64,000 nt of DNA from a virus, in the IMG/VR virus record IMGVR_UViG_3300026097_000876, positions 186,001 to 250,000 of that record; one strand, given 5' to 3'. A program made the position numbers and the translations under genes. The notes under the pieces are model-generated. The model searched no databases, was not told the origin of the DNA, and was given only the letters and a program-made list of their open reading frames with translations. Each line of letters begins with the position of its first letter. The stretch's first letter is position 1. Shown piece after piece: positions 33,053-59,713 of the stretch.

Positions 33053-33400
33053 ATGGATGACGCTCTAGAAAAGGCACTTGAATTCTCAAATTTTACAGCA
33101 ACCTTAAATAATCAAAAAAGAATACTTCATGAAAAATATACTGAAGAGCTTGGACTTTACTATTGCGGCGGTAAGTTTACAGTAACAAAAGAATTATTAA
33201 CGTTTTGTCATTTGCTTTTAAGTAAAGACATTTCAAAAACTGTAGTAATAGACGATAATAATTCTCCTATCCAAATTGATGACATTGATGATTTTATGAC
33301 AGTGTCATTACAACAATACGCAACTGCCGCTAACAAATATTTTGCGCATTATAAAGAACTTAGTACTAAACGGAGTGTTGAAGGTTTAGCAGATGTCTGA
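33053..33400 (+). CDS. Small conserved phage protein, unassigned
   Basis: A 115-residue, mostly helical, acidic protein (MDDALEKALEFSNFTATLNN; FTVTKELLTFCHLLLSKD; VVIDDNNSPIQIDDIDDFMT). It has no enzyme motif, signal peptide or membrane segment. Proteins of this look occur beside the fibre genes in marine T4-like phages and may be virion-associated. A good AGGAG site precedes its ATG. It is the first gene of the coupled operon and overlaps the first glycosyltransferase-like gene by 8 bases. Confidence 0.65.
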   Translation: MDDALEKALEFSNFTATLNNQKRILHEKYTEELGLYYCGGKFTVTKELLTFCHLLLSKDISKTVVIDDNNSPIQIDDIDDFMTVSLQQYATAANKYFAHYKELSTKRSVEGLADV

Positions 33401-34220
33401 CGGAGTATTATGTTTTGCTCATAATAATGGATCTATTGACTATATAAAGCAAGCGGCGTTCTTGGCAAAAAGAGTAAAACAACATTTAGACATACCAGTG
33501 TCTGTTGTTACATCAACACCTGACAAAATTAATAAAAAACACAGTAAACTATTTGATAATATTATTTTTATTGATGATGACAATACAAATTCTAAAAGAT
33601 ATAATGACGGACAGAACACACATCAAAATCTTTATTTTAAAAACAACGGAAGAATAAACAGTTACGACCTTACTCCGTATGATAGAACACTAGTTTTAGA
33701 TACAGATTACATTATTTGTAATGATGTTTTTAAAAATGCATTTGGAAATGGTAAATTTCAAATATATAGAGATGGGGTTGATTTATGTAGCTGGCGAAAA
33801 CATGCAGAGTTTGATTATATTAACAATAAAGGCATTCCTTTCTATTGGGCAACTTGTTTCTATTTTGAAAAAGATCTAGAAAATAAGATATTTTTTGATA
33901 CTCTAAAACAATTACAATCAAATTGGAGCTACTATAGCACAGTTTATGATTTAGGAAGTCGTAATTTTAGAAATGATCATATTTTTAGTATGGGTATTCA
34001 TATCATGAATGGATTTTCAGATAGCCACTGGGCTAAGTTATTACCGGGTAAAATGTTTTACACACTAGATAGAGATAAATTATACAAACTAGACAATGAT
34101 AAATTAGTTTTTATGTTAGAAAAAGAAAGTCGAGTTAATGAATATGTTCTGTCTTCGACAGATCGATGTAATGTACATGTAATGAATAAATTTAGCTTGG
34201 AGCGTGTTTTAGATGTCTAA
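33393..34220 (+). CDS. GT-A glycosyltransferase-like protein with DTD motif
   Basis: 275 residues resembling GT8-type or related nucleotide-sugar transferases. The N-terminal Rossmann-like half opens with GVLCFAHNNGSIDYIKQAA and continues through IPVSVVTST. The metal-binding motif is LDTDYI (Asp103-Thr-Asp105), preceded by YDRTLVLD. The second half carries ATCFYFEKD and a conserved NDHIFSMGIHIM. A paralogue follows immediately. Phage enzymes of this type can glycosylate DNA, virion proteins or host glycans; the target here is unknown. It overlaps both neighbours by 8 bases, so translation is coupled. Confidence 0.7.
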   Translation: MSDGVLCFAHNNGSIDYIKQAAFLAKRVKQHLDIPVSVVTSTPDKINKKHSKLFDNIIFIDDDNTNSKRYNDGQNTHQNLYFKNNGRINSYDLTPYDRTLVLDTDYIICNDVFKNAFGNGKFQIYRDGVDLCSWRKHAEFDYINNKGIPFYWATCFYFEKDLENKIFFDTLKQLQSNWSYYSTVYDLGSRNFRNDHIFSMGIHIMNGFSDSHWAKLLPGKMFYTLDRDKLYKLDNDKLVFMLEKESRVNEYVLSSTDRCNVHVMNKFSLERVLDV

Positions 34221-35022
34221 AGGATACGTAATGATGGCTTCGGGTGCCGAATACGTTAAACAAGCATATTTGTGTGCTAAAAGTATTAGAGAAACTCAAA
34301 CCATCAATAATGTGTCATTGCTTACTAATGACACAGTGCCGCAAGAATATAAATCAGTATTCGACAAAATAATTGAAGTCCCTAACAGTCAAACAGATTT
34401 TTATCGTACAGACTTTCGCTGGAAAGTATTTCATATTACTCCGTATGACGAAACAATTGTATTAGACACTGATATGATATTTCTTACTGATGTTAGTCAT
34501 TGGTGGAATTATCTCAGAAAATACGATATCTGTTTTACAAAAAACACAAGAACATATCGTAATACTCTGATAACAAACAATTATTATAGAAAGGCATTTG
34601 AAGATAATTATCTTCCTAATATTTATTGTGCATTTCATTATTTTAAAAAAACTGACATAGCTTTAAATTATTACTTAAAGTTAAAACAAATTTGTAAAAA
34701 CTATAAAGAATTTTATAAAATCTATGTTCCGAAACAAACACCTAAACTAAGTAGTATGGACATTAATCATGCCATTACAGTATTGGATCAACAAATAGAA
34801 AATTATATTTTTGAACCTGCTAGTTTTGTACACATGAAAAGCAATGTACAAGATTGGAAAAACCCAACAGAAAATTGGACAGATACTATTCCTTTTTATT
34901 TTTCACAAGATTTTACTCTTAAAGTTGGAAATTATTTACAACACGGAATCTTTCATTATACCGAAAACAGTTTTTGCAACACTATAATACAACAACTAGG
35001 AAAACAAAATGAAGTATATTGA
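34213..35022 (+). CDS. GT-A glycosyltransferase-like protein, paralogue of upstream gene
   Basis: 269 residues with the same plan as the preceding gene: YVMMASGAEYVKQAYLCAKS at the N-terminus, then a TPYDETIVLDTDMIF strand with the metal-binding Asp85-Thr-Asp87, an IYCAFHYFKKTD acceptor-side segment and SSMDINHAITVL. The pair differs enough in the second half to suggest different acceptors. It overlaps both neighbours (8 and 14 bases). No signal or membrane segment, so it acts in the cytoplasm. Confidence 0.7.
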   Translation: MSKGYVMMASGAEYVKQAYLCAKSIRETQTINNVSLLTNDTVPQEYKSVFDKIIEVPNSQTDFYRTDFRWKVFHITPYDETIVLDTDMIFLTDVSHWWNYLRKYDICFTKNTRTYRNTLITNNYYRKAFEDNYLPNIYCAFHYFKKTDIALNYYLKLKQICKNYKEFYKIYVPKQTPKLSSMDINHAITVLDQQIENYIFEPASFVHMKSNVQDWKNPTENWTDTIPFYFSQDFTLKVGNYLQHGIFHYTENSFCNTIIQQLGKQNEVY

Positions 35023-35527
35023 AGTACCTACTCCACAATATGTTTGTTATAATAAAAATACTGGAGAAATTTTTAGCATTGGACCTAGCATTGACGATGA
35101 ATATTCTTATATTGAAATTGCAGAAGAGCAATCTCAATTATTTAAAAATTTTACAGAAAGAATGGTTGAATGGAAAGTACTGTATAATAAAAGATCTAAA
35201 AAATTTGAACTTCGTAAAGATATAGAAAAAACAGAAAACGAATTTCCTCTTAAAAAAATTACAAAAGCAGTAGATGAATACGCCGATGTTGAATTAATAA
35301 TTGACAAACTAAAAAACTTGTGTTACATTAATATTAATGATCTTCCTGTTAACATAGACAAAGAAATAGAGTTTTTTATAACTAAAGAAAACGATCCACA
35401 TTTTTTGTATCAATCTTTAAAGTTTAATTTAGGAAGTGCTGATAAAATACATATTGAGATAGCACATACATACAGTGTATATTCTAATAATATGTTTGTA
35501 GAGTGTGCTGTAAAGGAGATAGTTTGA
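35009..35527 (+). CDS. Hypothetical protein of glycosyltransferase operon
   Basis: 172 residues that I do not recognise. It begins MKYIEVPTPQYVCYNKNTGE and has an 'IFSIGP' strand, a long Lys/Glu-rich central part (KKFELRKDIEKTENEF) and a beta-rich C-terminus (FNLGSADKIHIEIAHTYSVY). It looks like two small beta domains joined by a charged linker, and may be structural rather than enzymatic. The end overlaps the TTG start of the next gene (TTGA). Confidence 0.6.
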   Translation: MKYIEVPTPQYVCYNKNTGEIFSIGPSIDDEYSYIEIAEEQSQLFKNFTERMVEWKVLYNKRSKKFELRKDIEKTENEFPLKKITKAVDEYADVELIIDKLKNLCYININDLPVNIDKEIEFFITKENDPHFLYQSLKFNLGSADKIHIEIAHTYSVYSNNMFVECAVKEIV

Positions 35528-36426
35528 AATTAAAAATTGCAGAACAAGACATTATCTATTTGTCGTACGACGAACCAAATGCAGAAAAAAATTATGCAGA
35601 CTTGTTATCTAAGGTTCCGTGGGCAAAACGAATTCACGGAGTCAAAGGTTCAGATGCGGCACATAAAGCCTGTGCAGAAATTAGCGAAACTGACAGATTT
35701 ATTACTGTAGACGGTGATAATATTGTTGATCAAAAATTTTTAGATCAAGTCATTGATTTAGATCAACATACTGATTTAAAGAAAAGTGTTATTAGCTGGT
35801 GCGGGCGTAATGTTATTAATGGACTTGTATACGGCAACGGTGGACTTAAATGTTGGCCTAAAGATTATGTTTTAAATATGCGTACACACGAAGCAGCAGA
35901 TCCTAACGATATTAATGCACAAGTTGAATTTTGTTGGGATGCAGAATACATTCAAATGTCTGACTGTTATAGCACAGTACACAACAATGCAAGTCCAAAA
36001 CAAGCGTGGCGAGCAGGTTTTCGTGAAGGTGTAAAACTTGCATTAGACCGAGGCGTAAAAGTAGACAAAGAATTATTTTTACAAAGCCATGAAAAAAATT
36101 TACATATGTTATATATTTGGCTTATGGTAGGATATGATGTTCCGAACGGGCATTTTTCAGTGTATGGTGCCAGAGAAGGACTTATGATGACTATGCTAAG
36201 TGATTGGGATTATGTTCAGGTCCGTGACTTTGATTATTTAGATAGTCATTGGGAGGGTATTAGTAGCATGCCTATGGATGTTCTTTATAGTGAAATTAAT
36301 AATAACGGATTTATGTTAAGAGATGAGTTAGGTATTCCGATTGCACCTGAACCATTATCAGAAGATCAGAGTGAATTTTTTAAAGCAGTTCACCACAGCT
36401 TCGGAAGAGGTAAACATCTTAAATGA
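35524..36426 (+). CDS. Nucleotide-diphospho-sugar transferase-like protein
   Basis: 300 residues. I place the start at TTG 35524 because AAGGAG sits at 35513-35518 and the upstream stop interlocks with it; a GTG at 35503 would add seven residues but lacks a site. The protein opens with IIYLSYDEPNAEKNYADLL, has HGVKGSDAAHKACAE and the metal-site-like ITVDGDNIVD, then GNGGLKCWPK and QAWRAGFREGVKLALDRG. The layout is that of a GT-A fold with DGD in place of DxD. A shorter paralogue lies at 37750. The function is probably glycosyl transfer; acceptor unknown. Confidence 0.65.
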   Translation: MKLKIAEQDIIYLSYDEPNAEKNYADLLSKVPWAKRIHGVKGSDAAHKACAEISETDRFITVDGDNIVDQKFLDQVIDLDQHTDLKKSVISWCGRNVINGLVYGNGGLKCWPKDYVLNMRTHEAADPNDINAQVEFCWDAEYIQMSDCYSTVHNNASPKQAWRAGFREGVKLALDRGVKVDKELFLQSHEKNLHMLYIWLMVGYDVPNGHFSVYGAREGLMMTMLSDWDYVQVRDFDYLDSHWEGISSMPMDVLYSEINNNGFMLRDELGIPIAPEPLSEDQSEFFKAVHHSFGRGKHLK

Positions 36427-37757
36427 ATAAAAATGAAGTAAAACAAAAATTAGATTCGGTTGGTTGCGGATTTTGTCTAGCTAAATGGACGCAAGTTACA
36501 ATTCATCTTGGATCCGGAATCAATCATAGTTGTCATCATGTCAGAGCACATGCAATTCCATTAAAAGATCTTGCTGACAATCCTAATGTTTTACACAACA
36601 CAGGATTCAAAAAGAATACCAGAAAGCAAATGCTAAACAACGAACGTCCTGATGAATGTGACTATTGTTGGAGAATCGAAGATAATACAGATAAACTTAG
36701 TGACAGAGTATTAAAAAGTGCAGATTCCTGGTCTTGGCCTGAATACGATATAATTAGTAAATCTTCAGGAGACGAGGATGTTTATCCTAAATATGTAGAA
36801 GTCAGTTTTAGTAATGTGTGTAATTTTAAATGTGGGTATTGCGGACCTGCATTTAGCAGCAAGTGGGCTGAAGAAATTAATCAACATGGTCCGTACACAT
36901 TTGATAAAACTAATTGGAAATATAATTTGATTGACGAATATCAACAACAAATTCCTACTAGAGAACATAATCCTTATATTGAAGCATTTTGGAAATGGTT
37001 TCCGGAAGCTGTTGAACACATGCATACCTTTCGAATTACAGGTGGAGAACCATTACTAAGTAAACATACTGACAAAGTTTTACAACATTTATTAGAAAAC
37101 CCCCAACCAGAATTAGAATTTAGTATTAATACTAATGCATGTCCCCCGAATAATTTGTGGAAAGAATTTACTAAAAAAATAAAAGTTTTAGAAGAAAAAA
37201 ACTGTATTAAAAGATTTGTATTATTTGTAAGTGCAGAAGCCAAAGGAAAACAACAAGAATATAACAGACACGGAATGAATTGGCAATTGTTTGTAGATAA
37301 TGTAGAATACTTTCTTGAAAATACTAATGGGCGGCTTAGTTTTATGAGTGCATTTAATATTTTAAGTGTACCAACATTTTTGCCTTTTTTAAAATATGTA
37401 TCTAGTCTCAAAGGAAGATTTGATAATGATGTAAATATTGATATTCCATATGTAAGAAATCCTCATTTTCTAGATTGTATGATTGCAACTGAAGAACTTG
37501 TACAAACATATTTACATCCTTGTCTTAAATTTATGCAAGAAAAAAACTTTGAAGCGTTTGAGATACAAAAATTTGAAAGAATTCTCGAAGATTTAGATGG
37601 TCGTTTTAAAAATCCAGATAAATTTAAACAAATATCAAATGAAGGACGAAGAATGTTTTACGACTGGATTAGAGAACACGATAAGCGTCGAGGAACAAAT
37701 TTTGAAAAAACTTTTCCAGAACTGATAACATTTTATAGAGATTGCTTGTATGTATGA
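36423..37757 (+). CDS. Radical SAM enzyme, twitch/SPASM type
   Basis: 444 residues. The 4Fe-4S site is CNFKCGYC (Cys133, Cys137, Cys140) after a VEVSFSNV strand, followed by FRITGGEPLLSKHTDKVL, the SAM-binding GGEP motif, and FSINTNACPP. The first 90 residues hold extra cysteines (GCGFCLAKWTQ; a HSCHHVRAHAIP; DECDYCWRIEDN), the twitch-type N-terminal iron-sulfur domain seen in a group of phage and marine bacterial radical SAM proteins. It sits between two GT-A-like paralogues with ATGA overlaps on both sides. The reaction cannot be predicted; family members act on peptides and sugars. Confidence 0.85.
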   Translation: MNKNEVKQKLDSVGCGFCLAKWTQVTIHLGSGINHSCHHVRAHAIPLKDLADNPNVLHNTGFKKNTRKQMLNNERPDECDYCWRIEDNTDKLSDRVLKSADSWSWPEYDIISKSSGDEDVYPKYVEVSFSNVCNFKCGYCGPAFSSKWAEEINQHGPYTFDKTNWKYNLIDEYQQQIPTREHNPYIEAFWKWFPEAVEHMHTFRITGGEPLLSKHTDKVLQHLLENPQPELEFSINTNACPPNNLWKEFTKKIKVLEEKNCIKRFVLFVSAEAKGKQQEYNRHGMNWQLFVDNVEYFLENTNGRLSFMSAFNILSVPTFLPFLKYVSSLKGRFDNDVNIDIPYVRNPHFLDCMIATEELVQTYLHPCLKFMQEKNFEAFEIQKFERILEDLDGRFKNPDKFKQISNEGRRMFYDWIREHDKRRGTNFEKTFPELITFYRDCLYV

Positions 37758-38433
37758 TATTGTGTTTATAAGTTATCATGAATCTAATGCAGAACAAAAC
37801 TTTGATAAATTGCATCAAAGATTTAACAATATAGGCGTTTTTGGAGATAGAATAAAACGGGTATCTAATGTTAAGGGAATACATAATGCACATATCGAAG
37901 CTGCTAAGATAGTTAATACAAACTATTTTTATGTAGTCGATGGAGATGCTGATATTGTAAGTGACTTTAAATTTGATTATGAAACTATTGATAGTGATGT
38001 AGTACATGTATATTCCAGTATTAATCCTATTAATAATCTTGAATACGGCTACGGTGGAGTAAAATTACTACCAACACAACTTACTAAAAATATAGATACT
38101 ACTACACACGATATGACCACAAGTATATCAAAAAAATTTAAAGTTTTAGATGAAATATCAAATATTACAGCATTTAATACAGATGAATTTAGCACTTGGC
38201 GTTCGGCATTTAGAGAATGTGCAAAATTATCGAGTAGAACAATACAAGGACAAATCGATGAAGAAACCGAACAAAGACTCAAAATTTGGACAACCGTGGG
38301 ACACGATAGAGACTTCGGTGAACATGCCATTAACGGTGCTAGGGCCGGTATGGAGTTTGGCCTTTCTAACCAGTCTGATATATCATTAATAAACGATTTT
38401 GATTGGCTAAAAGAGCAATTCAATAATGATTAA
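37750..38433 (+). CDS. Nucleotide-diphospho-sugar transferase-like protein, short paralogue
   Basis: 227 residues, homologous to the gene at 35524: DIVFISYHESNAEQNFDKL against IIYLSYDEPNAEKNYADLL, VKGIHNAHIEAAKIV against VKGSDAAHKACAE, VVDGDADIV against TVDGDNIVD, and EYGYGGVKLLP against VYGNGGLKCWP. The C-terminal INGARAGMEFGL matches VYGAREGLMM. About 70 residues of the longer copy are missing. The pair brackets the radical SAM gene. Confidence 0.65.
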   Translation: MYDIVFISYHESNAEQNFDKLHQRFNNIGVFGDRIKRVSNVKGIHNAHIEAAKIVNTNYFYVVDGDADIVSDFKFDYETIDSDVVHVYSSINPINNLEYGYGGVKLLPTQLTKNIDTTTHDMTTSISKKFKVLDEISNITAFNTDEFSTWRSAFRECAKLSSRTIQGQIDEETEQRLKIWTTVGHDRDFGEHAINGARAGMEFGLSNQSDISLINDFDWLKEQFNND

Positions 38434-39277
38434 TATCGTTGTTACAAGTAAACCAGTAGATGGACTTCTTTATTATAGTTACGAATACTGTGATATGCTT
38501 AACAAAGCAGGCTATCCTGCTAAGGTTGTTATTATATGTCACCAAAAATTTAGTGTACTAGATTATATGGAAGTCCTAACCACCAAATACACATATGTAG
38601 ATAATGTTGTGTATAACAATTTAAATGTAGGCAATGACGATGTAACACTTGTTATGGGCAGGAGTATGATTACACTGTCTTGGATCAATTACAACGATTA
38701 TACAGAAGAACAAAAACAAACACTGCATAGTGTATTTGCTAATAAAGTAATAAGTGTGTATTCAGAAAATCATCCTGCACAATATCCGCAGGCAGTAGAG
38801 TTTTATAGCCCTAAACAAATTGTAGACCTATGCGACACTGAAGTGTATCCTAATGGCGTAGGAGAACACTTTGAAAAAACAATTAATTTTAGTATATATA
38901 AACCGCACACAGACAACATACAATTTAAACATTTATTTCTAGGAACAAACGACAAATACTACGCAACAGTAGAAAAGGTAATTGACCAATTTCCTGATCA
39001 CGGGATCTTGACATATGACGAAAAGTATGTTAATATTAAAAATAATAACGTATTTGCACCTGTAGGAAATCTAATGGGCATGTTCGAAACATATGTTTAC
39101 ACAAAAGAAACATTTGATCCGGCTCCTAGAATCTTTCAAGAGTGCAAATATTATGGAAAGGATGTGATTTACTTGAGAGACAAAAACATACAAGACGGCG
39201 GCAGTGTGTACTGGAAACGAGATCTAAAAGAACCAGATGTAACAGCAATCATAAATGCTATAAAGGAATTTAAATGA
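38426..39277 (+). CDS. Possible GT-B glycosyltransferase-like protein
   Basis: 283 residues. The N-terminal half has a Rossmann-like start (INIVVTSKPVDGLLYYSYEY) and the strand-turn SMITLSWINYND. The C-terminal part contains APRIFQECKYYGKDVIYLRD and then DGGSVYWKRDL, which resembles the Glu-helix-plus-strand that grips the nucleotide sugar in GT-B enzymes (E..yyG..Viy). Overlaps by 8 bases upstream and ATGA downstream. If not a glycosyltransferase it is still likely a two-Rossmann-domain protein. Confidence 0.5.
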   Translation: MINIVVTSKPVDGLLYYSYEYCDMLNKAGYPAKVVIICHQKFSVLDYMEVLTTKYTYVDNVVYNNLNVGNDDVTLVMGRSMITLSWINYNDYTEEQKQTLHSVFANKVISVYSENHPAQYPQAVEFYSPKQIVDLCDTEVYPNGVGEHFEKTINFSIYKPHTDNIQFKHLFLGTNDKYYATVEKVIDQFPDHGILTYDEKYVNIKNNNVFAPVGNLMGMFETYVYTKETFDPAPRIFQECKYYGKDVIYLRDKNIQDGGSVYWKRDLKEPDVTAIINAIKEFK

Positions 39278-39633
39278 AAATTGATCCAAAATGTCTAAAA
39301 TTTAATACCCCAAAAAATAAAGGTGCGGCATATACTTCTGATGGATTTATGCTGCCCTGCTGTTGGATAGACGATCCGCCAGTTTATAGATATCTTGTAG
39401 AAATGGGTATGAAAGATCCGGAATTAGCATTAGAAAATAACGATTGCTTAGAAGACATTTTTACATCAGATCAATGGGAGAACTTCTTCCAAAAATTATA
39501 CGATGATCCTGATCGGTGTTCATATATGTGTAAGAAAAAATGCGGCGTTGAACTTACCGACGGCGAAACTGAAATTCGTAAAGTAGAAGAAAGACTAGAG
39601 GTTTTAAAACAAAGTGAAGGAAAGAATTACTGA
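39274..39633 (+). CDS. Stand-alone SPASM-like auxiliary Fe-S domain
   Basis: A 119-residue protein with the SPASM signature and no radical SAM core: Cys7, then TSDGFMLPCCWIDD (Cys29-Cys30), an 'EDIFTSDQWENFFQKL' helix and the DRCSYMCKKKC cysteines near the end. In full-length enzymes such a domain follows the barrel and binds one or two auxiliary clusters. Here it overlaps the 5' end of a short radical SAM gene by 20 bases, which suggests a split two-chain enzyme. A second split pair at 44075-45045 has the reverse order. Confidence 0.7.
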   Translation: MKIDPKCLKFNTPKNKGAAYTSDGFMLPCCWIDDPPVYRYLVEMGMKDPELALENNDCLEDIFTSDQWENFFQKLYDDPDRCSYMCKKKCGVELTDGETEIRKVEERLEVLKQSEGKNY

Positions 39634-40357
39634 TACCTATGTAAAATATCAGAAAAATTGCAGGATTAATGTCGATACCTCGCATCGTTGTCCCTTTCGG
39701 TGCCCTCAGTGCGTGAGACAAAAGACAATAAGCCAAGATATGATACGTAGAAGTTTTGATTTGGAAGAACATAACTTTCAAAAAATATTAGATTATTACG
39801 ATAATGGTCCTACATTTTGTGGACAAATTTCTGACCCTATCTATCATCCTAGATTTTTAAATTTTTTAAAAATGTGCAATGGACGAAATAGAGCTGTTCG
39901 TATTGCCACAGTAGGTAGTGGTAAAAGCGACGAGTGGTGGGACGAGGCTTATAGCTATGGTCTTGGAGAAAATCAGTGGACTTTCGGAGTAGACGGTATA
40001 GACGAAAAGAGCGAACTGTATCGCGTTGGTAGTAATTTCAAAGATCAATGGCGTCGAATGCAACAGGGTAGAGATCTAGGACATGTAATTGTTTGGCAGT
40101 ATATTATATTTGGTTATAATGAACACGAAATAGATCAGGCAGTAGAAATTGCAAAGAAAGAAGATTTTACTCTGCTTTTTGTTAACACAAACAGGGGATT
40201 TAATCCAGAAAGTGATACCCTGAGAAAGAATGTTAATTTTAAAATAAACAGTCCCGATCCAAAGCATCTTACTGATCGTCTTAAGAAAGAATGGTATGCT
40301 CATACCACAGATGTATTTCAGGCCTGGCGTGATCTTCCTCCTTGGAGTCCGAAATGA
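39614..40357 (+). CDS. Short radical SAM enzyme lacking C-terminal domain
   Basis: 247 residues from GTG (39614), a start I accept with reserve since no ATG is close and the site is weak. The cluster motif is CPFRCPQC (Cys26, Cys30, Cys33). The rest is a partial barrel with FCGQISDPIYHPRFLNFLK in place of the usual GGEP, then TFGVDGIDEKSELYRVG and IVWQYIIFGYNEHEIDQAVE, the conserved last strands. The same 'FCGQ.SDP..HP.F..FLK' occurs in the gene at 44075, so the two are paralogues. The SPASM-like part is the separate gene immediately upstream. Confidence 0.8.
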   Translation: MKERITDTYVKYQKNCRINVDTSHRCPFRCPQCVRQKTISQDMIRRSFDLEEHNFQKILDYYDNGPTFCGQISDPIYHPRFLNFLKMCNGRNRAVRIATVGSGKSDEWWDEAYSYGLGENQWTFGVDGIDEKSELYRVGSNFKDQWRRMQQGRDLGHVIVWQYIIFGYNEHEIDQAVEIAKKEDFTLLFVNTNRGFNPESDTLRKNVNFKINSPDPKHLTDRLKKEWYAHTTDVFQAWRDLPPWSPK

Positions 40358-40923
40358 AAAGTAAAAAGAATAGCCTAGTTAAATGTGAGCATTATCCAAC
40401 ATTATTTTATGATACGCAATCTGATACTTTTGTAAAGTATTATAGTGATCGAGCTCCTTTTGAAAAATGGTGGAGTGTTTATAGAGAGTATCAAAATTTT
40501 GAACATAGAACTGTGCAGGTTTTAGACGTAAATTTCAAAAAGAAATACTTTGTAATGGAGTCAATAAAAGGTATTAATCTTGAGCACGAGATGATTAAAC
40601 TAGATTTTGAGGATACAAAGAAAGTTCTGACACAGACTTTAGAAATTTTTAGTAATAAATTTAGTTTTGCATGCGAAGCTATGCATGACACAGAGATATT
40701 TTTCCATAAAGACTTTCGAACTGAAAATCTCATGTTTGACGAAAATAAAAATGTGAGACTAGTAGACCCTGATAGTTTCAGTGTTTTGCCACTTGATAGA
40801 ATGAATAATTTATTGTTTTTTGGAAGGTACATGGATACTCTTACATCCATTCGAGAACGCCTTAGTTTTGCAGAGCTTACCGAAGAGCAAAAATATCGAT
40901 TAGGAAGAGGATATTTATACTAA
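40354..40923 (+). CDS. Small kinase-like phosphotransferase
   Basis: 189 residues from the ATG at 40354 (GGAG seven bases upstream; overlaps the previous stop as ATGA). The catalytic loop is HKDFRTENLMF (His118, Asp120, Asn125), and the metal site is LVDPDSF, where DPD (138-140) stands for the DFG motif. The N-terminal lobe has a 'KKKYFVMESIKGINLEHEM' strand-hinge. This is a minimal protein-kinase-like fold as in small-molecule and sugar kinases (APH, HipA, LPS kinases). In a glycan operon a sugar or lipid acceptor is more likely than protein. Confidence 0.7.
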   Translation: MKSKKNSLVKCEHYPTLFYDTQSDTFVKYYSDRAPFEKWWSVYREYQNFEHRTVQVLDVNFKKKYFVMESIKGINLEHEMIKLDFEDTKKVLTQTLEIFSNKFSFACEAMHDTEIFFHKDFRTENLMFDENKNVRLVDPDSFSVLPLDRMNNLLFFGRYMDTLTSIRERLSFAELTEEQKYRLGRGYLY

Positions 40924-45045: not shown

Positions 45046-45064
45046 CAACATATGGAAGATTAAA

Positions 45065-45741: not shown

Positions 45742-45770
45742 TTGACAATTCATATTAATTAGTGTATAAT
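45742..45770 (+). promoter_or_regulatory. Sigma70-type promoter, perfect consensus
   Basis: TTGACA (45742-45747), 17-nt spacer, TATAAT (45765-45770), in the 62-base gap between two genes of the same strand. The exact match to housekeeping consensus is rare by chance. It is placed for the radical SAM, carbamoyltransferase and methyltransferase genes, and divides the island into separately controlled parts. Confidence 0.9.
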
Positions 45771-52114: not shown

Positions 52115-53093
52115 GGGCGTCTCCTTTAAAGTTAATACGATAATAAACATAAAACAACATTAAACTAGTTGATAGCATAATAACTGTTAGCGCACTTGCT
52201 AGGCCCCAGTTTAATGTATATTGAACTTGTCTAATTATTTGTTCTGTAACAAACAGGCCTTTACTTCCACCTAACAGACTTGGAGTAATATAGTATCCAG
52301 TAACACTCATAAATGTTAGTATGGTGCTGTTTGCAATACCTTTGATTGTTTGCGGCAAATACACATATCTAAATGTTTGAAATTTATTAGCACCTGAAAT
52401 TGTACTTACTTTAATTAAATCGTTATTAACATTTTTCATAGCAAGATATATAGGTAATACACTTAGTGGCAGTGCGATATATACACTGCCTATATAAATT
52501 GCTGTAATTGTATTCATAAGATCGAAAGGTTGTAACAATAATATCCAACTAACTGTACGACTTAAGAAGCTACTAAACAGCGGAATCAACACAACAAATA
52601 GTGCAATCTTAGCTGCTTTGCCTTTTAGTTTAGTAAGATAATATGCAAGAGGATACGCTACTACTAAGCAAATGGCTGTAATAATTGCACTAAGAAGATA
52701 TGTCCTTCCTATAACTTTTAAGTATAAGTCGTTAAATGCACGTTTAAAATTAGCAAATGTATAAGGCTTTACTTCTTGTTCTATTACACTCCAAAATGCA
52801 GGGTCTTGCCATCCAGGGTGTTCTAAACCTTTTCTAAACATACTTCGTGTTTTGTGATAGTGATGATTAAGGTAGGTGATAGATCTACGACTGTCCTCAC
52901 GGGCTAAGTCACTTTTTATAGCTTCAGTCCGGTCTCCGCCGTTAACTACGTAGTCGGTTATGTTTGGAAGATAACGTTCAACAGTTGTGTTGTAAACACT
53001 ATTTTTAAGAATTTCACCTAGTGGAAGGAGAAAGAACACTGCTAGAAAAAATACTAGCGGTATAATCTTTCCATGTTTCGCAAACAAATTCAT
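52107..53093 (-). CDS. ABC transporter permease, PotB-like
   Basis: 328 residues. A first hydrophobic segment (residues 10-30) is followed by a long periplasmic loop (about 35-110), then five more membrane segments (e.g. TYLLSAIITAICLVVAYPLA) and the coupling loop LIKVSTISGANKFQTFRYV. The extended loop is a known feature of PotB-like proteins in marine alphaproteobacteria. The start overlaps the ATPase gene by 80 bases, unusually long, but AGGAG ten bases before the ATG supports it. Stop and next start interlock. Confidence 0.85.
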   Translation of the reverse strand: MNLFAKHGKIIPLVFFLAVFFLLPLGEILKNSVYNTTVERYLPNITDYVVNGGDRTEAIKSDLAREDSRRSITYLNHHYHKTRSMFRKGLEHPGWQDPAFWSVIEQEVKPYTFANFKRAFNDLYLKVIGRTYLLSAIITAICLVVAYPLAYYLTKLKGKAAKIALFVVLIPLFSSFLSRTVSWILLLQPFDLMNTITAIYIGSVYIALPLSVLPIYLAMKNVNNDLIKVSTISGANKFQTFRYVYLPQTIKGIANSTILTFMSVTGYYITPSLLGGSKGLFVTEQIIRQVQYTLNWGLASALTVIMLSTSLMLFYVYYRINFKGDARA

Positions 53094-53757
53094 TTACAAA
53101 ATCACTCCTAGGATTATCAAGAATTTCTGTAGGACTGCCTACTTGCTCTACTTTTCCTTGATTCATAATAACAATAGTGTCGCACATATTAAATGCTTCA
53201 GTGAAGTCGTGTGTGACGTACACTACTGTTGTATTTTTAAGTAGCTGTTTAATATCTTTTTGTAATTTAATTCTTAGCTTTAAGTCTAGCGATGCTAAAG
53301 GTTCGTCCATTAGTATAACATCTGGATTATATACTAATGCCCTTGCAATTGCAACTCGCTGTTGTTGCCCACCGCTTAATTGTTTAGGATATTTATCAGC
53401 ATGTTCTTCCATTCCTATAACATTTAAAATATTAGATACAGCGGATGTATTCTTGCCTTTTACTCTCAATGGATATGCTATATTTTCATAAGCAGTCATA
53501 TTAGGAAATAAACTAAAGTTTTGAAACACCATTCCTAGTGGTCTTTTATTACTACTTAGGCTAGTAATATCCAAACCGTTAACTATTACTTGTCCACAGT
53601 CTGGTGTTTCAAACCCTGTAATGCAATTAAGTAGGGTACTTTTGCCGCTGCCACTAGGTCCTAGAACAGCGACATTCGATCCAGAAGAAACATTAAAAGT
53701 TACATCATCGAGAACTTTATCTCGAAATGTTTTGCTAATGTTCTTTATTTCTAGCAT
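53014..53757 (-). CDS. ABC transporter ATP-binding protein, PotA-like
   Basis: 247 residues, a complete nucleotide-binding domain: Walker A GPSGSGKST (residues about 33-41), Q-loop GMVFQNFSLFPNMTAYEN, signature LSGGQQQR, Walker B VILMDEPLASLD and H-loop VYVTHDFTEAF. It is shorter than typical PotA (about 370) because the C-terminal OB regulatory domain is absent; the last 20 residues are Ser-rich. All catalytic residues are intact, so transport is expected to be active. It starts at a TAATG overlap with the binding-protein gene. Confidence 0.9.
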   Translation of the reverse strand: MLEIKNISKTFRDKVLDDVTFNVSSGSNVAVLGPSGSGKSTLLNCITGFETPDCGQVIVNGLDITSLSSNKRPLGMVFQNFSLFPNMTAYENIAYPLRVKGKNTSAVSNILNVIGMEEHADKYPKQLSGGQQQRVAIARALVYNPDVILMDEPLASLDLKLRIKLQKDIKQLLKNTTVVYVTHDFTEAFNMCDTIVIMNQGKVEQVGSPTEILDNPRSDFVNEFVCETWKDYTASIFSSSVLSPSTR

Positions 53758-54842
53758 TAGTCTAAGAGCCAGGCTTCCCAGCGTTCATTGATGCGTTCGC
53801 CATTGTCAGCCCACCATGCGCCGTCACGTGGAATGCTACCAGTATAGTTATTAGGGTTAGTAACCATTTCGGCTTCCATGTCTGATCCAGTGTCTACCGA
53901 AGTCCAGTTGCCTGAATTTAAATCAATTGAACTCTTACGTGTAGGCGAGTAAGGAATAATACGACTAATTAGTGCTAGTGTTTCTGTACTAGTAGCATGT
54001 TGCAAAAACGCCTTTACTTCAGGAGTCATTTGTCCTTTTGCTACTACCCAAGGAGAAACTGTATAAATTTGTGCATCCCAAATTTGCTCAATGCTTTGTC
54101 CGTCTACGTTCTTGGCTTTCCAAAAACGTCCATTATAGCTTGCTAAAATTTGTACTTGTCCTGCACTCAATTGTTGAATACCAGCGGCTGCTTTGTCCCA
54201 CCATACAATATGATCTTTAATAGTATCTAACTTAGCAAATGCACGATCGAGTCCTTCGTCAGTTGCTAGTACATCACGTACAATGTTTCGATCCACTCCA
54301 TCGGCAATCAGTGCCCATTCTAAGTTATTGTAAGGACGGCGTTGTAATCCTCGCTTTCCTGGAAACTGTTCAACATCAAATACATCGTAAATTGTTTGTG
54401 GTGCGTTGTTAGCGTATGTTTCTGGATCGTATCCAAACTGAATACTGTATACTGCCTGTGGTGCCACACAATCTTTTAGCATACCAGGAAGAAAGTCCTC
54501 ACTAGGTAGTGTACCGTCTGGTGCAGGCAGCAACACATCGTCGTGATTAAAGTTTTCTACTAAACCGTCTTCGCATGCAATAGCAAGTGCTTCCTGAGGA
54601 ATATCAATTACATCATATGTAATGTTTCCTGTTTCAATTTGTGTACGCAATGCTGCTAGTGCAGAGTGTGCATTTTTGATAACGTTTACAGTTACATCTG
54701 GATTCTGCTCAATAAACGGATCAATTGCTGCTCTTTGTTGTGCTTCGCCCCATGCACCGCCATAATTTACAATATTTACAGTACTGTCAGCATATGCTGA
54801 ACTTGCAACAAGTGCTAGAACTGTCATAAAGGTATATTTCAT
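53757..54842 (-). CDS. Periplasmic substrate-binding protein, PotD-like
   Basis: 361 residues beginning with a short Sec signal (TFMTVLALVASSAYA, cleavage after residue 18). The mature start STVNIVNYGGAWGEAQQRAA and the following DVIDIPQEALAIACEDGLV are typical of PotD/PotF family 1 solute-binding proteins; IVWWDKAAAGIQQLSAGQVQ and PWVVAKGQMTPEVKAFLQHA are later family landmarks. It would capture a cationic or amino compound in the periplasm and deliver it to the two permeases. First gene of a six-gene minus operon; AGGAG precedes the ATG and a near-consensus promoter lies upstream. Confidence 0.9.
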   Translation of the reverse strand: MKYTFMTVLALVASSAYADSTVNIVNYGGAWGEAQQRAAIDPFIEQNPDVTVNVIKNAHSALAALRTQIETGNITYDVIDIPQEALAIACEDGLVENFNHDDVLLPAPDGTLPSEDFLPGMLKDCVAPQAVYSIQFGYDPETYANNAPQTIYDVFDVEQFPGKRGLQRRPYNNLEWALIADGVDRNIVRDVLATDEGLDRAFAKLDTIKDHIVWWDKAAAGIQQLSAGQVQILASYNGRFWKAKNVDGQSIEQIWDAQIYTVSPWVVAKGQMTPEVKAFLQHATSTETLALISRIIPYSPTRKSSIDLNSGNWTSVDTGSDMEAEMVTNPNNYTGSIPRDGAWWADNGERINERWEAWLLD

Positions 54843-54945: not shown

Positions 54946-54962
54946 CTGTTTTATCGAGCATA

Positions 54963-54968
54963 TATAAT
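54963..54968 (+). promoter_or_regulatory. -10 element for a possibly leaderless transcript
   Basis: TATAAT ends five bases before the ATG at 54974. A transcript starting at the usual 7 bases downstream would begin at or next to the start codon. There is no Shine-Dalgarno and no good -35 at 17 bases (AGTCAA). It faces away from the transporter promoter. Confidence 0.45.
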
Positions 54969-54973
54969 ATACA

Positions 54974-55828
54974 ATGTCATATAAAGTAACACATAATCAC
55001 CATCTTAGCGTTCGCAAAACAACAGATTATATTGTAAAATTAGGTCGTTGTGAGAACATGCCTATGGATTTTAAATCTGAAGCATTACGAGCTGCTAAGT
55101 TAATAGCAAAAGAATCTAATAATATATGGATTAGTTACAGCGGCGGTATAGACAGTGAGTTTATTATTCAAGTGTTTCTTGAAGCAGGCATCCAATTTAG
55201 AGTTGCCACAATTGTTATGAAAGACGGATCTAACGATTACGATCTACAGCACAGTAGAAATTTTTGTAAACGTATGGGTATCAAGCTACACGAATTTGAA
55301 ATTGATTTAGAAGAGTTTTATAAAAATGATCTAGAAACATATGCTGTTGCAACTAATTGTATTAGTCCACAGTTTCCGGTGCATATGTGGTTATGGGATC
55401 AACTAGATGGATTTATAGTTGCAGGCCACGGTGATCCAATCTTTAAACGTAAAGATTCTAGATGGTATCTTCAAATTCAAAAAAAAGAAGACAGCGTATT
55501 TAGATATGCTCAGTGGAGAAATAGAAACATGGCTCCGGGATTTTACGTATATACTCCGGAACTTCTACTAAGTTTTATGCTAGAAAAAGAAGTAAGTAAT
55601 ATGTTTATTGCTCCTAAGTTAGCAGGGTTAAGAGATATTGCACAAGTCAAACATCTGGTTTATTCTAAATATTACGATATGGTCGAAAGAGAAAAAAGAA
55701 CTGGCTTTGAGTTAGTAGATAACTTAAACAATGAATATAAAATACATTTAGAAAATACAATACCCGGACATGGCGTATTTCTACAATCAGTAGAAGACCT
55801 ATTACATAGAATTTGGCCTAAACTATGA
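54974..55828 (+). CDS. PP-loop (N-type) ATPase, asparagine-synthase/QueC-like
   Basis: 284 residues. The P-loop is ISYSGGIDSEFIIQVFLEAG (SGGxDS near residues 57-62), with VATIVMKDGSNDYDL as the second strand and IKLHEFEIDLEEFY as the third. PP-loop enzymes adenylate a carbonyl or carboxylate, allowing amide, guanidino or nitrile formation. WLWDQLDGFIVAGHGDPIF is the late family region. No glutaminase domain is attached. Start: no ribosome site, -10 adjacent, probably leaderless. The last codons overlap the GNAT gene (ATGA). Confidence 0.8.
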   Translation: MSYKVTHNHHLSVRKTTDYIVKLGRCENMPMDFKSEALRAAKLIAKESNNIWISYSGGIDSEFIIQVFLEAGIQFRVATIVMKDGSNDYDLQHSRNFCKRMGIKLHEFEIDLEEFYKNDLETYAVATNCISPQFPVHMWLWDQLDGFIVAGHGDPIFKRKDSRWYLQIQKKEDSVFRYAQWRNRNMAPGFYVYTPELLLSFMLEKEVSNMFIAPKLAGLRDIAQVKHLVYSKYYDMVEREKRTGFELVDNLNNEYKIHLENTIPGHGVFLQSVEDLLHRIWPKL

Positions 55829-56274
55829 TTATTAAACAAGTAGATTTTGAAACAGTGTTACCTGCGTGGGAAAACAATCTTTGGCCTAATCGCAAAGATC
55901 CTATTAAACCTACAAATAATATTTGTTATCTAGGTGGAAGAGATAAAGATATTAATAATCAAACACCTGTATTTTTTGCCGTGTACGATAATAAAACTAT
56001 AGTAGGTGTAAACAGCGGCTTTCCTACACTACACGGAGGATTTCGTAGTAGAGGTATTTGGGTTGATCCGGCATATAGAGAAAAAGGTGTTGGGGCAATG
56101 TTGCTAAATGCTGTAATTGATTATGCTCGAGAGAATGAATATTCTTATGCATGGAGTATGCCAAGACAAAGTGCTCTATCAGCATATACTAATGTAGGCT
56201 TTGAGCAAACAAGCGATTTTTTTGACGAAGGCGTAGAGTTTGGTCCTAACTGTTTTGTAAGGATTGATCTATGA
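55825..56274 (+). CDS. GNAT-family N-acetyltransferase
   Basis: 149 residues, full GNAT length. RSRGIWVDPAYREKGVGAML holds the acetyl-CoA pyrophosphate loop (R.KGVG), preceded by a FFAVYDNKTIVGVNSG strand pair; YSYAWSMPRQSALSAYTNVG, then FEQTSDFF, is the C-terminal arm. It would acetylate an amine. Overlaps of 4 bases on both sides place it in one transcript with the PP-loop and radical SAM genes. Confidence 0.8.
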   Translation: MIIKQVDFETVLPAWENNLWPNRKDPIKPTNNICYLGGRDKDINNQTPVFFAVYDNKTIVGVNSGFPTLHGGFRSRGIWVDPAYREKGVGAMLLNAVIDYARENEYSYAWSMPRQSALSAYTNVGFEQTSDFFDEGVEFGPNCFVRIDL

Positions 56275-57743
56275 CTGATGTAGTTTTAGTTACTTTACCT
56301 AAAATGGAAATTAGAGCACCCTTAATTGGCCCGGCTGCTCTTAAAAGTATATGCGAAGCAGATGGGTACTCTGTACATTGCGTTGACTTTAATATCGAAC
56401 TATATCATCAATTGCGAACACAAGTTCCTGAATGGTGGATTTATAATGATCAAACATTTATGCAAGACGATTTATTTGACGAAGCATGGACTACTATATT
56501 AGAACCTATAGTTCACAGCTGGTGTAAAAAACTACAAGACCTAAATCCTAAAGTAATTGGTGTTACAGTATTAAGCATGTGGACCGAACGTATCTGTAAT
56601 AAGTTTTTGCAAACACTAGAATTATATTGTCCAGATACCCGTGTAGTATTAGGGGGACCGGGAACACAGCCAGCATATGGTCCAAAGATGCTAGAAGCAA
56701 AAAAAATTGATGCATACATTACAGGCGAAGGCGAAGTTAGTTTTTTAGAATATCTTAGAGGCAACAAATATTATCCTGGAATAAATGGCAATCCTGCTGA
56801 ACAGATTGGAGATATGAATACATTACCGTTTCCTGACTATAGTGATTTTGATTTATCAAAATATAGCAGCACTTGGTGGGAACCTCACAAAGAGCCAACA
56901 GGGTGTAAATGGTTGTATATTACAGGCACTCGGGGGTGTATTAAGCGATGCACTTTTTGTAATGTAGGATCAATATGGCCAAAGTTTGTTAGCAAAACAG
57001 GTGAAACTATTGCTAAAGAAATAAAACATTATATGGATACTACAGGAGTAACTCACTATTATTTTACTGACAGTTTACTCAATGGTAATGTAAAGAATCT
57101 AGAAGAAATGGTAGACGCTATTATTTCTTTAGGTATTAAGCCTACTATAAAAGGACAATGGATTGCTCGTGGTAAAGATTTAATTAATAGTGAGCTATGG
57201 AAAAAGATGGGCAGAGCAGGTTTCAAACAACTCTTAGTGGGTATCGAAAGTGGAAGTTATAAAACACGCAACGAAATGAAAAAGGGTGTTAGAGAAGAAG
57301 ATATAGAATATACATTTGAACAAGCAAGCAAAAACAAAATTAGATGTATACCGTTGCTTATGGTAGGATATCCAACAGAGACAGCAGAAGATTTTGAGGA
57401 AAATATTAAATTTTGGACTAGGTATAAAAAATATAATGACAATGGTACTATTCTAAAACCTAGTGTGATGGCAACGAATATTTTACCAGACACTCCTCTA
57501 CATCATAAATTTACCGGAAACGGACTAGAGTATGACGATTTAGGTAACTGGGTATATAAAGACAACACTATGAAAGTTCGAATCGAACGCTGGTTTAGAT
57601 ATCGAGACGAGGCACATCGCTTAGGTTATGAACTTACTTTAGATACTCCTAAACATCTCATAAGAGAATACAAGCGTATTACTGGAATAGATCTTAGTGA
57701 AGAATACAAACTCAAAGATACAGAAGAAATATGGAATGATTGA
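56271..57743 (+). CDS. B12-binding-type radical SAM protein, paralogue
   Basis: 490 residues, homologous over its length to the minus-strand gene at 49921: VTLPKMEIRAPLIGPAALKS, YSVHCVDFNIELYHQ, VVLGGPGTQPAYGP, GTRGCIKRCTFCNVGSIWPK (Cys223, Cys227, Cys230), THYYFTDSLLNGN, LLVGIESGSYKTRNEMKKG and RCIPLLMVGYPTETAEDF. The C-termini also match (RIERWFRYRDEAHRLGYEL). Two copies on opposite strands in one island suggest consecutive or alternative carbon modification steps. It overlaps the GNAT gene by 4 bases. Confidence 0.85.
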   Translation: MTDVVLVTLPKMEIRAPLIGPAALKSICEADGYSVHCVDFNIELYHQLRTQVPEWWIYNDQTFMQDDLFDEAWTTILEPIVHSWCKKLQDLNPKVIGVTVLSMWTERICNKFLQTLELYCPDTRVVLGGPGTQPAYGPKMLEAKKIDAYITGEGEVSFLEYLRGNKYYPGINGNPAEQIGDMNTLPFPDYSDFDLSKYSSTWWEPHKEPTGCKWLYITGTRGCIKRCTFCNVGSIWPKFVSKTGETIAKEIKHYMDTTGVTHYYFTDSLLNGNVKNLEEMVDAIISLGIKPTIKGQWIARGKDLINSELWKKMGRAGFKQLLVGIESGSYKTRNEMKKGVREEDIEYTFEQASKNKIRCIPLLMVGYPTETAEDFEENIKFWTRYKKYNDNGTILKPSVMATNILPDTPLHHKFTGNGLEYDDLGNWVYKDNTMKVRIERWFRYRDEAHRLGYELTLDTPKHLIREYKRITGIDLSEEYKLKDTEEIWND

Positions 57744-57770: not shown

Positions 57771-58373
57771 ATGATAAACACACTTTATAAAGTACCAATT
57801 TGGATACAAGACAATACATTGCCGCAAGATAAATTAGATATGCTAGAACAAGCATGCTACGACAAGTGTCAACCATTGTCAGATTATCCAGATGAATTTA
57901 ATCCTGATATTTTTAAATTTTCTCGTTCTAACAAAATAAATGTTCATACGGAGCCTGAATTTAAAGAAGTTACTAACTTAATGTTAACAGCCGCAAGAAA
58001 TATGATGTTAGAAATGAGTTACACACAAGAACAGGCTCAGCGTCTTAGAATTGTTAACAGCTGGTTTGCAATATATAAAAATAAAGATAATCTACCTATG
58101 CATACACACCGTGATAGTTTCTTTTCAGGAGCATATTATATTAAAGATGTTACAGATTGTAAATTACGATTTATTCATGACATCTATAGAAATACACCTT
58201 ACCCAGAAGATTTACATAATGAATGGGGCAAAAATGTTACAGACTTTGATTGTAAAGACGGACGAATTATTATATTTCCTAGTGACTGTATACACGGAAT
58301 TGATCAGCTTAATAGTAATAAGCCCGATAATGAACCTATTAAAGTTATGTTATCGTATAATTTTAATTTTTAA
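57771..58373 (+). CDS. 2-oxoglutarate/Fe(II) oxygenase-like protein
   Basis: 200 residues of the phage/bacterial 2OG-Fe(II) family with the TIGR02466-like layout. The metal site is likely the His and Asp of MHTHRDSFFSGAYYIKD (HxD) and the distal His in IIFPSDCIHGI; the co-substrate side is near PIKVMLSYNFNF. Such enzymes hydroxylate or desaturate; phage copies are frequent in marine T4-like genomes. ATAAAGGATT precedes the ATG. Its TAA shares TTAA with the stop of the convergent minus-strand gene. Confidence 0.75.
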   Translation: MINTLYKVPIWIQDNTLPQDKLDMLEQACYDKCQPLSDYPDEFNPDIFKFSRSNKINVHTEPEFKEVTNLMLTAARNMMLEMSYTQEQAQRLRIVNSWFAIYKNKDNLPMHTHRDSFFSGAYYIKDVTDCKLRFIHDIYRNTPYPEDLHNEWGKNVTDFDCKDGRIIIFPSDCIHGIDQLNSNKPDNEPIKVMLSYNFNF

Positions 58374-58864
58374 ACACAGGCAACAATATGAATTCGATCC
58401 TCAAAACTTCCGTTTAATGCTAGGTGCTTTAATCTAGTATCTAACCAATATAAATGACCTACTGATTCCATTCTTAATATTTCTTCGTCTACTATAAACA
58501 TACAATTATTATTTGTAGTTACAGGAATATGCATTCGCGGGGTTGGATCTGTGTGATATGAATAACATTCTTTAGAGCGCAGTGTCATTACTCTAGTTCT
58601 ATATAAATTATTTTCTTTAATAATACTATTAATATATGGTATATCGTAGTAACATTCGGTAATATCTGTTTCTTCAAAATGTGTTTTAGCAGTTCTTTCT
58701 TTGTTTATAGGATCAAACACATCAAAATCACCTCTCCATGTTTGTAGATTATTGTTAGAATTTATAGCGTAGTTAATACTTTCTAATTCACTAATAATCT
58801 TTTCAACATCATATTTTTTGCCTGTTTTTATAAATTTATTCACGTACCTTTTCCCTTCGGACAT
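58370..58864 (-). CDS. Asp/Asn beta-hydroxylase-like 2OG oxygenase
   Basis: 164 residues. YSYHTDPTPRMHIPVTTNNN is the metal and co-substrate block (HxD plus the RxHIP that binds 2-oxoglutarate), HLYWLDTRLKHLALNGSFED supplies the distal His, and RIHIVACV ends it. This is the compact phage form of the Asp/Asn hydroxylase family (PF05118-like). It probably hydroxylates a small molecule. The 5' end overlaps the SDR gene by 25 bases; its ATG is preceded by CCGAAGGGAAAAGG. Confidence 0.75.
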   Translation of the reverse strand: MSEGKRYVNKFIKTGKKYDVEKIISELESINYAINSNNNLQTWRGDFDVFDPINKERTAKTHFEETDITECYYDIPYINSIIKENNLYRTRVMTLRSKECYSYHTDPTPRMHIPVTTNNNCMFIVDEEILRMESVGHLYWLDTRLKHLALNGSFEDRIHIVACV

Positions 58865-59292
58865 ACAGTTAATTCTTTTACTCTATACGGCTGGTCCAAT
58901 ACCCATTCAATTATACCTACTACATATTCTAAATCCATTTTAGGAGTGTCAATGTCTGCTACTCGTTCGGTATCAAAAAAACCAAAATTTAAACATGTAG
59001 TATCGTAATAATTATCAAAAAGTTGGCTGTTTGCATCACGCAGAGCTTTCTTTTCTACGCCATATCTATATGTTTTTTTTCCTGGATGATAAATCCAGTC
59101 ACTTGCTGAACTTCCTATATTAATTACTTTTTTGTTTTTTTCTATTGCTTTGTAGAGTAATTTTACTTGAGAAAATTCGTCATGCTTACAGTTAATAAAC
59201 ACATCGCATTCGTCTAACGATTCGCAATTGCCGTATTTTTCTTCAAGAACTTTTCCTAGACCTCGTCTTGTTCCTGTGATATAAAATTTCAT
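58840..59292 (-). CDS. Short SDR-family oxidoreductase
   Basis: 150 residues. TGTRRGLGKVLEEKYG is the TGxxxGxG nucleotide loop, VINIGSSASDW carries the catalytic Ser and RYGVEKKALRDAN the YxxxK pair. The usual 240-250 residue body is cut: after the first helix only about 20 residues remain before strand 4, so one or two Rossmann units are missing. All catalytic motifs are present, so it may still work, perhaps as a dimer. It faces divergently from speD; no clear promoter. Confidence 0.75.
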   Translation of the reverse strand: MKFYITGTRRGLGKVLEEKYGNCESLDECDVFINCKHDEFSQVKLLYKAIEKNKKVINIGSSASDWIYHPGKKTYRYGVEKKALRDANSQLFDNYYDTTCLNFGFFDTERVADIDTPKMDLEYVVGIIEWVLDQPYRVKELTVCPKGKGT

Positions 59293-59359
59293 TAGTAAGT
59301 TCCTTGGCTATAACACTATTATAAGTATATATACACTTATATTAGAAAGGACATATATT

Positions 59360-59713
59360 ATGGCATGGGGCTATCATTTATTAGTGGACTGTAAGCAAGG
59401 CGACATTCCTAGTATTACTAGCAAAGAAAATGTATCTACTTTTGTTAGGAAATTAGTAAAAGGAATTGACATGGTAGCATACGGTGATTTAATGATTGAA
59501 CGCTTTGCTACACATGATCCTGATAAAGCCGGTATTAGTTTTTGTCAAATGATTGAAACGTCAAACATTACAGGACATTTCGTCGAACTTAATGGAAACT
59601 TTTATATTGATGTTTTTAGTTGTAAACCTTATGATACTCATACAGTGCTGGATTTAATACAAGAATATTTTAATCCAGCATCTGTTAGCACAACTTTTAT
59701 TAATAGAGATTAA
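59360..59713 (+). CDS. speD: S-adenosylmethionine decarboxylase-like protein, SpeD
   Basis: 117 residues, the size and pattern of the class 1 SpeD copies of marine T4-like phages: WGYHLLVDC, DLMIERFATHDPDKAGISF, then QMIETSNITGHF and FYIDVFSCKPYDT. By ungapped alignment with bacterial SpeD, the self-cleavage Glu-Ser-His becomes Thr67-Ser68-Asn69, while His73 and Cys88 are kept. The enzyme makes its own pyruvoyl cofactor from the Ser and supplies decarboxylated SAM for spermidine synthesis. Some SpeD relatives have changed to ornithine or arginine decarboxylation, so the substrate needs checking. AGAAAGGAC is its ribosome site. Confidence 0.85.
   Translation: MAWGYHLLVDCKQGDIPSITSKENVSTFVRKLVKGIDMVAYGDLMIERFATHDPDKAGISFCQMIETSNITGHFVELNGNFYIDVFSCKPYDTHTVLDLIQEYFNPASVSTTFINRD

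Follow-up and report, generated by a model that had tools for sequence, protein, structure and literature searches.

Pelagimyophages carry a hypervariable tail-fiber island, designated HRC, in which glycosyltransferases accompany radical SAM cassettes; this island lies between VrlC and gp14, and a role in altering the host O-chain has been proposed for it (Zaragoza-Solas et al. 2020, PMC7029224). A T4-like marine virus, TARA_ERS488813_N000010, possesses 12 radical SAM genes, which have been discussed in terms of Fe-S metabolism (PMC5332604). Here, we analyze a 26-kb island (33053-59713) within a window of 64,000 nucleotides, i.e., positions 186001-250000 of the 261,806-base virus record IMGVR_UViG_3300026097_000876. 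Its central part, unit B, is a conserved gene cassette that, on balance, probably builds and transfers a decorated amino-sugar. Position numbers are window coordinates unless referred to the record or genome, and genes are named by their start positions.

The island resembles HRC in being variable, in being attached to tail-fiber genes and in containing glycosyltransferase and radical SAM genes, a likeness that rests on tail-fiber position and gene content and not on the VrlC/gp14 boundaries. In contrast to HRC as defined in the accessible part of PMC7029224, it holds a DegT/radical SAM/carbamoyltransferase cassette and split SPASM pairs. Moreover, the baseplate hub/lysozyme of the present phage (4475-6970) has its nearest counterparts in the PA5oct group of Pseudomonas jumbo phages (~36% identity), an indication that this marine phage is neither a standard pelagimyophage nor a standard cyanophage. 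The TARA virus is likewise a radical-SAM-rich T4-like marine phage, but PMC5332604, as far as accessible, describes no sugar cassette. In phage Mosig EXVC030M (MT647606), unit B recurs with its gene order kept, and six of the genes are 53-59% identical (those for the GT-B glycosyltransferase, one of the short radical SAMs, DegT, the core radical SAM, the carbamoyltransferase and the methyltransferase); the phage differs in lacking unit C and in sharing little else at 53-59% identity, and its genome announcement makes no mention of the unit-B genes. Radical SAM ketone formation, DegT transamination and O-carbamoylation also come together in aminoglycoside biosynthesis (BtrN and the DegT aminotransferase of butirosin; TobZ), but the sequences are distant, no cyclitol synthase was seen here, and unit B adds nitroreductases and split SPASM subunits; we regard this likeness as an analogy, not as homologous membership.

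A tail-fiber cluster with glycosyltransferases and radical SAM cassettes is therefore known, whereas the particular combination of enzymes and the way they co-occur appear to be new: a search of open-access literature turned up neither the cassette and its all-or-none behavior nor the split SPASM pairs or a PotABCD-type importer. An earlier note on this DNA, made from the sequence alone, had stated that no described phage system with this combination was known, which holds for the specific set within the literature searched but not for the general kind, given HRC (PMC7029224).

RESULTS

Unit B is a conserved cassette at a cargo locus beside the tail fibers

The island, whose reported position between tail and core phage genes proved to be real, comprises 34 tightly packed open reading frames (ORFs), rather than the roughly 25 genes counted in the earlier note, flanked on the left by tail-fiber genes (30580-33016) and on the right by core phage genes (from 61063 on). 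It contains three units, A, B (38426-48697) and C (48684-57743), which have different distributions and are not one pathway.

We surveyed 69 contigs with relatives of radical SAM 45799, 43 of which had enough flank. Carbamoyltransferase and methyltransferase genes followed it in all 43 (always on the same strand as 45799), and DegT was nearby in 42 and GT-B in 36; a nitroreductase (30 contigs), a short radical SAM (30) and a SPASM protein (28) were optional members. Because these contigs had been picked by a unit-B gene, a fair test of co-occurrence requires a set picked by a unit-A gene, for which we used 53 contigs chosen by gene 36423, independently of unit B, and extending at least 8 kb downstream. 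With respect to GT-B, DegT, radical SAM and carbamoyltransferase, 41 of these contigs had none, 8 had all four, 2 had three and 2 had two. The pairwise comparison that the earlier note had proposed yielded 12 contigs with both radical SAM and carbamoyltransferase, 41 with neither and 0 with one alone (Fisher p 4e-12, a value to be read with the contigs being related and not independent). Only one isolate, the cultured Pelagibacter phage Mosig, was found to carry unit B. Thus, unit B is a genuine conserved cassette that dozens of other ocean phages carry as a block, and co-occurrence singles out GT-B, DegT, radical SAM, carbamoyltransferase and methyltransferase as its minimal set. The idea of co-selected steps consequently stands for this set, but not for the whole 26 kb, over which units A, B and C are distributed differently.

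Three arrangements of the site were observed among relatives. Two contigs (L067 and L079) have an empty site, with one small gene between unit A and the 61063 homologue, and in a third (L126) the cassette occupies the same place but is inverted relative to unit A, beside a 59710 homologue. Together with filled versions, these arrangements identify the region as a cargo locus between the tail-fiber block and core genes; it is a fixed locus beside the tail fibers of large marine T4-type myoviruses, and unit B is an independently orientable cassette.

The possibility that the region is an assembly join of host and phage sequence, raised in the earlier note, was rejected. A twin contig (UViG_3300007609_001041), not necessarily an independent sample, is 100% identical across 26423-64000, and the tail-to-A and A-to-B junctions recur in clearly different contigs, e.g., L029. 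Consistent with the overlaps reported before, 27/29 same-strand neighbors overlap in the island versus 66/169 in genome positions 1-186000 and 8/36 in the tail region, so that its tight packing exceeds the phage background. Overlap alone cannot define one pathway, however, because it is likewise high (28/37) in an unrelated metabolic island of the same genome. The largest intergenic gap within the island is 131 bp.

Enzymes of unit B

The core radical SAM 45799 contains invariant cysteines C24, C28 and C31 plus exactly four more (C198, C217, C250 and C253) across 33 aligned sequences. In BtrN, an aminocyclitol dehydrogenase that converts an alcohol to a ketone (PMC9012708), the fully ligated twitch cluster uses four cysteines (PMC9012708, PMC6231123), and the four extra cysteines of 45799 are as would be expected for a BtrN-like, fully ligated twitch [4Fe-4S] cluster. 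In the Foldseek comparison, BtrN came top; DesII, SpeY and BlsE were among the other matches, as were peptide-acting enzymes at similar template modeling (TM) scores. No homologue of 45799 was detected in 385 alphaproteobacterial and 399 Pseudomonadota genomes (E 1e-8); as a control, the same search gave matches in 3/3 phage records. Upstream of 45799 lies a perfect sigma-70 consensus (Table 1), and at least 11/12 matches to this consensus occurred in 10/34 homologous upstream regions versus 24/1500 random 120-mers. The consensus and its recurrence upstream of homologues support 45799-46632-48092 as a core transcription unit.

Carbamoyltransferase 46632 has both the N- and C-terminal Carbam_trans domains, and its nearest matches are GdmN and TobZ. 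PDB matches of the DegT protein are sugar and cyclitol transaminases; the protein is PseC-like and LegC-like, and its catalytic Lys aligns with that of 7b0d. The AlphaFold model of 38426 (predicted local distance difference test 93.2) adopts a GT-B fold. Among the four nitroreductase-fold proteins, Pfam alone sufficed to recognize 43398, whereas a profile common to the remaining three was needed for them and matches PDB nitroreductases (E 7.6e-7).

The SPASM-like proteins 39274 and 44710 are not fused C-terminally to a radical SAM core, and the seven-cysteine motif, as defined in PMC6231123, is partial in both. Their homologues adjoin a short radical SAM gene in 52/54 cases, suggesting that stand-alone SPASM proteins and short radical SAM proteins form two-subunit enzymes.

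Most family assignments of the earlier note were borne out, including all six radical SAM proteins of the island (each with an intact CX3CX2C motif), two SPASM-like fragments, four nitroreductase folds, DegT, carbamoyltransferase, ATP-grasp, GNAT, the four-gene ABC importer, two 2-oxoglutarate (2OG)-type oxygenases and SpeD. Its four to five glycosyltransferase-like genes are represented by two GT8-like proteins recognized by profile and one GT-B protein by model, two more being weakly GT2-like. For methyltransferase 48092, a Pfam search gave no match, and the assignment draws on 56% identity to a protein of Mosig that bears a methyltransferase annotation. Kinase-like 40342, which few relatives carry, scored below its cut-off, PP-loop 54974 was marginal (22.1 bits; cut-off, 21), and a short-chain dehydrogenase/reductase call for 58840 received no Pfam support.

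Table 1. Features of the island and its left border in window coordinates
Feature	Coordinates	Strand	Basis
Tail-fiber/structural genes 30580, 32102, left border of island	30580..33016	+	30580, PHROG tail fiber match
Unit A: small protein 33053, 33393, 34213, 35009, 35503, 36423, 37750	33053..38433	+	
GT-B-fold glycosyltransferase 38426	38426..39277	+	AlphaFold model and Foldseek
Split pair: stand-alone SPASM-like 39274 and short radical SAM 39614	39274..40357	+	
Weakly kinase-like protein 40342, optional in unit B	40342..40923	+	Pkinase 23.8 bits, below cut-off 31.7
DegT sugar aminotransferase	40923..41996	+	PF01041 E 1.7e-86
Three nitroreductase-fold flavoproteins	41993..44078	+	Pfam / common profile
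Second split pair: short radical SAM 44075 and SPASM-like 44710	44075..45045	+	
Fourth nitroreductase-fold protein	45038..45736	+	Common profile
Perfect sigma-70 consensus TTGACA-17-TATAAT, before 45799	45742..45770	+	12/12 matches; occupies the sole gap within unit B
Core radical SAM 45799, BtrN-like twitch cysteines	45799..46635	+	Cysteine alignment, Foldseek
Core O-carbamoyltransferase, TobZ/GdmN/NodU family	46632..48095	+	PF16861 E 7e-67, PF02543 E 3e-20
Core methyltransferase-like 48092	48092..48697	+	Similarity to Mosig protein
ATP-grasp ligase 48684 and B12-binding radical SAM 49921	48684..51375	-	
PotABCD-type ABC importer: PotC-like 51368, PotB-like 52107, ATPase 53014, binding protein 53757	51368..54842	-	
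PP-loop 54974, GNAT 55825, second B12-radical SAM 56271	54974..57743	+	
Right edge: 2OG oxygenase 57771, Asp/Arg-hydroxylase-like 58370, 58840, SpeD 59360	57771..59713	.	

Units A and C and the surrounding genes

Unit A remains with the tail fibers, and unit B may be present or absent. The order of tail genes and unit A was retained among 80 contigs that carry relatives of radical SAM 36423; where at least 6.5 kb of sequence precedes 36423 (56 contigs), gene 35503 was found in 47, 33393 in 43 and tail gene 30580 in 40. The order of the left-border tail genes is also kept in relatives, and 32102 gave no match in the PHROG comparison. Within unit A, 36423 is an N-terminal-twitch radical SAM protein (N_Twi_rSAM, NF033640; 310 bits versus a curated cut-off of 170), 33393 and 34213 are GT8-like by a profile that matches glycogenin (E 1.4e-6), and the weakly GT2-like proteins are 35503 and 37750 (GT2 match in 2/30 members). 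A single ORF of 4986 codons occupies 11045-26005 in the baseplate/tail region.

The importer of unit C is complete, with a binding protein, two permeases and an ATPase in one operon. The best PDB match of binding protein 53757 is a spermidine/putrescine-binding protein (E 5e-53), a family that also takes gamma-aminobutyric acid and opines, and the best model for ATPase 53014 is PhnT2, with PotA close behind; all importer models score below NCBIfam cut-offs. Its ORFs in 52107-53757 overlap their neighbors by 44 and 80 bases, for which reason start codons may be misassigned or translation may be coupled. In virus-record scans, which reach close relatives only, the binding protein, 49921, the PP-loop and the ATP-grasp protein returned the near-identical twin contig alone, and weak relatives of both B12-radical SAMs (49921 and 56271) lie near unit B in some other contigs. 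The importer thus appears to be a private addition of the present phage. Sinirhodobacter was rejected as its donor, since the closest relatives there share merely 28-29% identity, and permease homologues in 29 phage records were not counted as phage importers (18 had no stated host, and the 15 listed were all unannotated).

Beyond the right edge, the protein at 59710-60705 has a Major-tropism-determinant N-terminal domain (Mtd_N). A diversity-generating retroelement acting on it was rejected because no reverse transcriptase was found in the record.

Further clusters lie outside the window. Two of them, among structural genes at record positions 122298-127740 and 134243-145315, encode three tryptophan-halogenase-family flavoproteins, HldE, HldD and GmhB homologues, a full-length second carbamoyltransferase and, by reading, several apparent 2OG/prolyl-hydroxylase-like proteins. 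A second island of ~35 packed genes (record positions 72220-102424) encodes GT8 and GT25 proteins, a sulfotransferase match and a cytidylyltransferase/cupin fusion, and reading of the genes adds two nitrilase-like hydrolases along with several SGNH-like proteins.

DISCUSSION

From what was directly observed, namely gene families, motifs, all-or-none co-occurrence and the anatomy of the cargo locus, we infer a product, an acceptor and an order of steps: unit B somewhat probably builds and transfers a sugar decorated with amino, carbamoyl and methyl groups, destined for a glycan of either the virion or the host envelope. Of the modified glycan or small molecule foreseen in the earlier note, the modified glycan is accordingly our best, conditional reading of unit B. 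The BtrN-like twitch enzyme and the radical SAM cores with separate SPASM subunits would oxidize a sugar hydroxyl to a ketone. A DegT transaminase needs a ketone substrate, and the unit-B enzyme would convert this ketone to an amine. Carbamoyltransferase and methyltransferase would then cap the sugar, with the nitroreductase-like flavoproteins adjusting the redox state, and GT-B would link the sugar to a glycan of the host envelope, where it would block rival phages, or to one of the virion. As judged from the enzyme families, a route of oxidation, amination, carbamoylation, methylation and transfer is plausible. The genome elsewhere offers a glycan context in its GT8, GT25 and sulfotransferase matches and its HldE, HldD and GmhB homologues; no GmhA-type SIS domain was found in the genome. 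More tentatively, it is possible, if somewhat short of probable, that unit B represents a viral multi-step amino-sugar pathway, with radical SAM split from SPASM and no known bacterial counterpart, that rewrites the surface glycan of host or virion.

Several points weigh against this reading. The structural matches of 38426 are weak (WaaC heptosyltransferase, E 3e-4; T4 alpha-glucosyltransferase, E 6e-4; TM-scores 0.35-0.46), and one of them is a DNA glucosyltransferase. TM-scores of 45799 are 0.44-0.55, with CteB and MoaA similar to BtrN, and scores of 0.44-0.52 place BtrN only weakly above peptide-acting enzymes; radical SAM folds are all alike, and SPASM enzymes act mostly on peptides. No NDP-sugar dehydratase was recognized in the island. 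HldE occurs in 1/18 long records, that of the present phage, and is absent from the other 17, for which reason ADP-heptose was rejected as a shared precursor of unit B. Tryptophan halogenases, found in 3/18 records, were rejected as part of the system.

The peptide preference of SPASM enzymes also bears on an unlikely, although not negligible, alternative in which unit B, perhaps with unit A, modifies tail-fiber or receptor-binding proteins: SPASM and twitch radical SAMs and oxygenases would alter side chains and transferases would glycosylate, thereby changing adsorption. Units B and A directly follow the tail-fiber genes, unit A holds this place in most relatives, and the GT8-like proteins are related to glycogenin, which glycosylates protein. 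However, the carbamoyltransferase and DegT come from sugar-acting families, and no precursor-peptide gene, as expected of a RiPP maturation locus, fits into the intergenic gaps of the island, with peptides overlapping other genes remaining conceivable. The match of 38426 to T4 alpha-glucosyltransferase would equally suit the synthesis of a hypermodified DNA base, as in thymidine and cytosine hypermodification, where radical SAM and pyridoxal phosphate enzymes occur together with transferases. We consider this very unlikely. The thymidylate synthase/dCMP-hydroxymethylase family (PF00303) is absent from the record, which may be incomplete, in a search whose control worked, and this absence makes DNA modification unlikely; a TET/JBP search was also empty, but its positive control gave no match either.

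The remaining alternatives concern how much of the island acts together. A mixture of auxiliary metabolic genes that accumulated at a recombination hotspot, with no shared product, would suit unit C and the right edge and agrees with a locale that may be empty, inverted or filled. As an account of the locus it is quite unlikely, given that unit B is all-or-none in the independent contig set and retains its order in the distant isolate Mosig. At the other extreme, the version put forward in the earlier note, in which the whole 26 kb, importer included, forms one pathway with its own transport step, draws on contiguous and overlapping genes throughout. We disfavor it and give it hardly any credence: the three units are distributed differently, the importer, ATP-grasp and PP-loop genes are confined to the near-identical contig, and the genes of an unrelated island of the same genome overlap to a comparable extent.

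Which genes of ocean tail-fiber islands act together was not known before, and co-occurrence now singles out a minimal set. A cultured phage that infects the most abundant marine bacterium carries this set, which makes a direct search for the product feasible. Enzymologists would find split radical SAM/SPASM enzymes of interest, and a complete ABC importer borne by a phage would point to feeding of the host by the phage in the course of infection.

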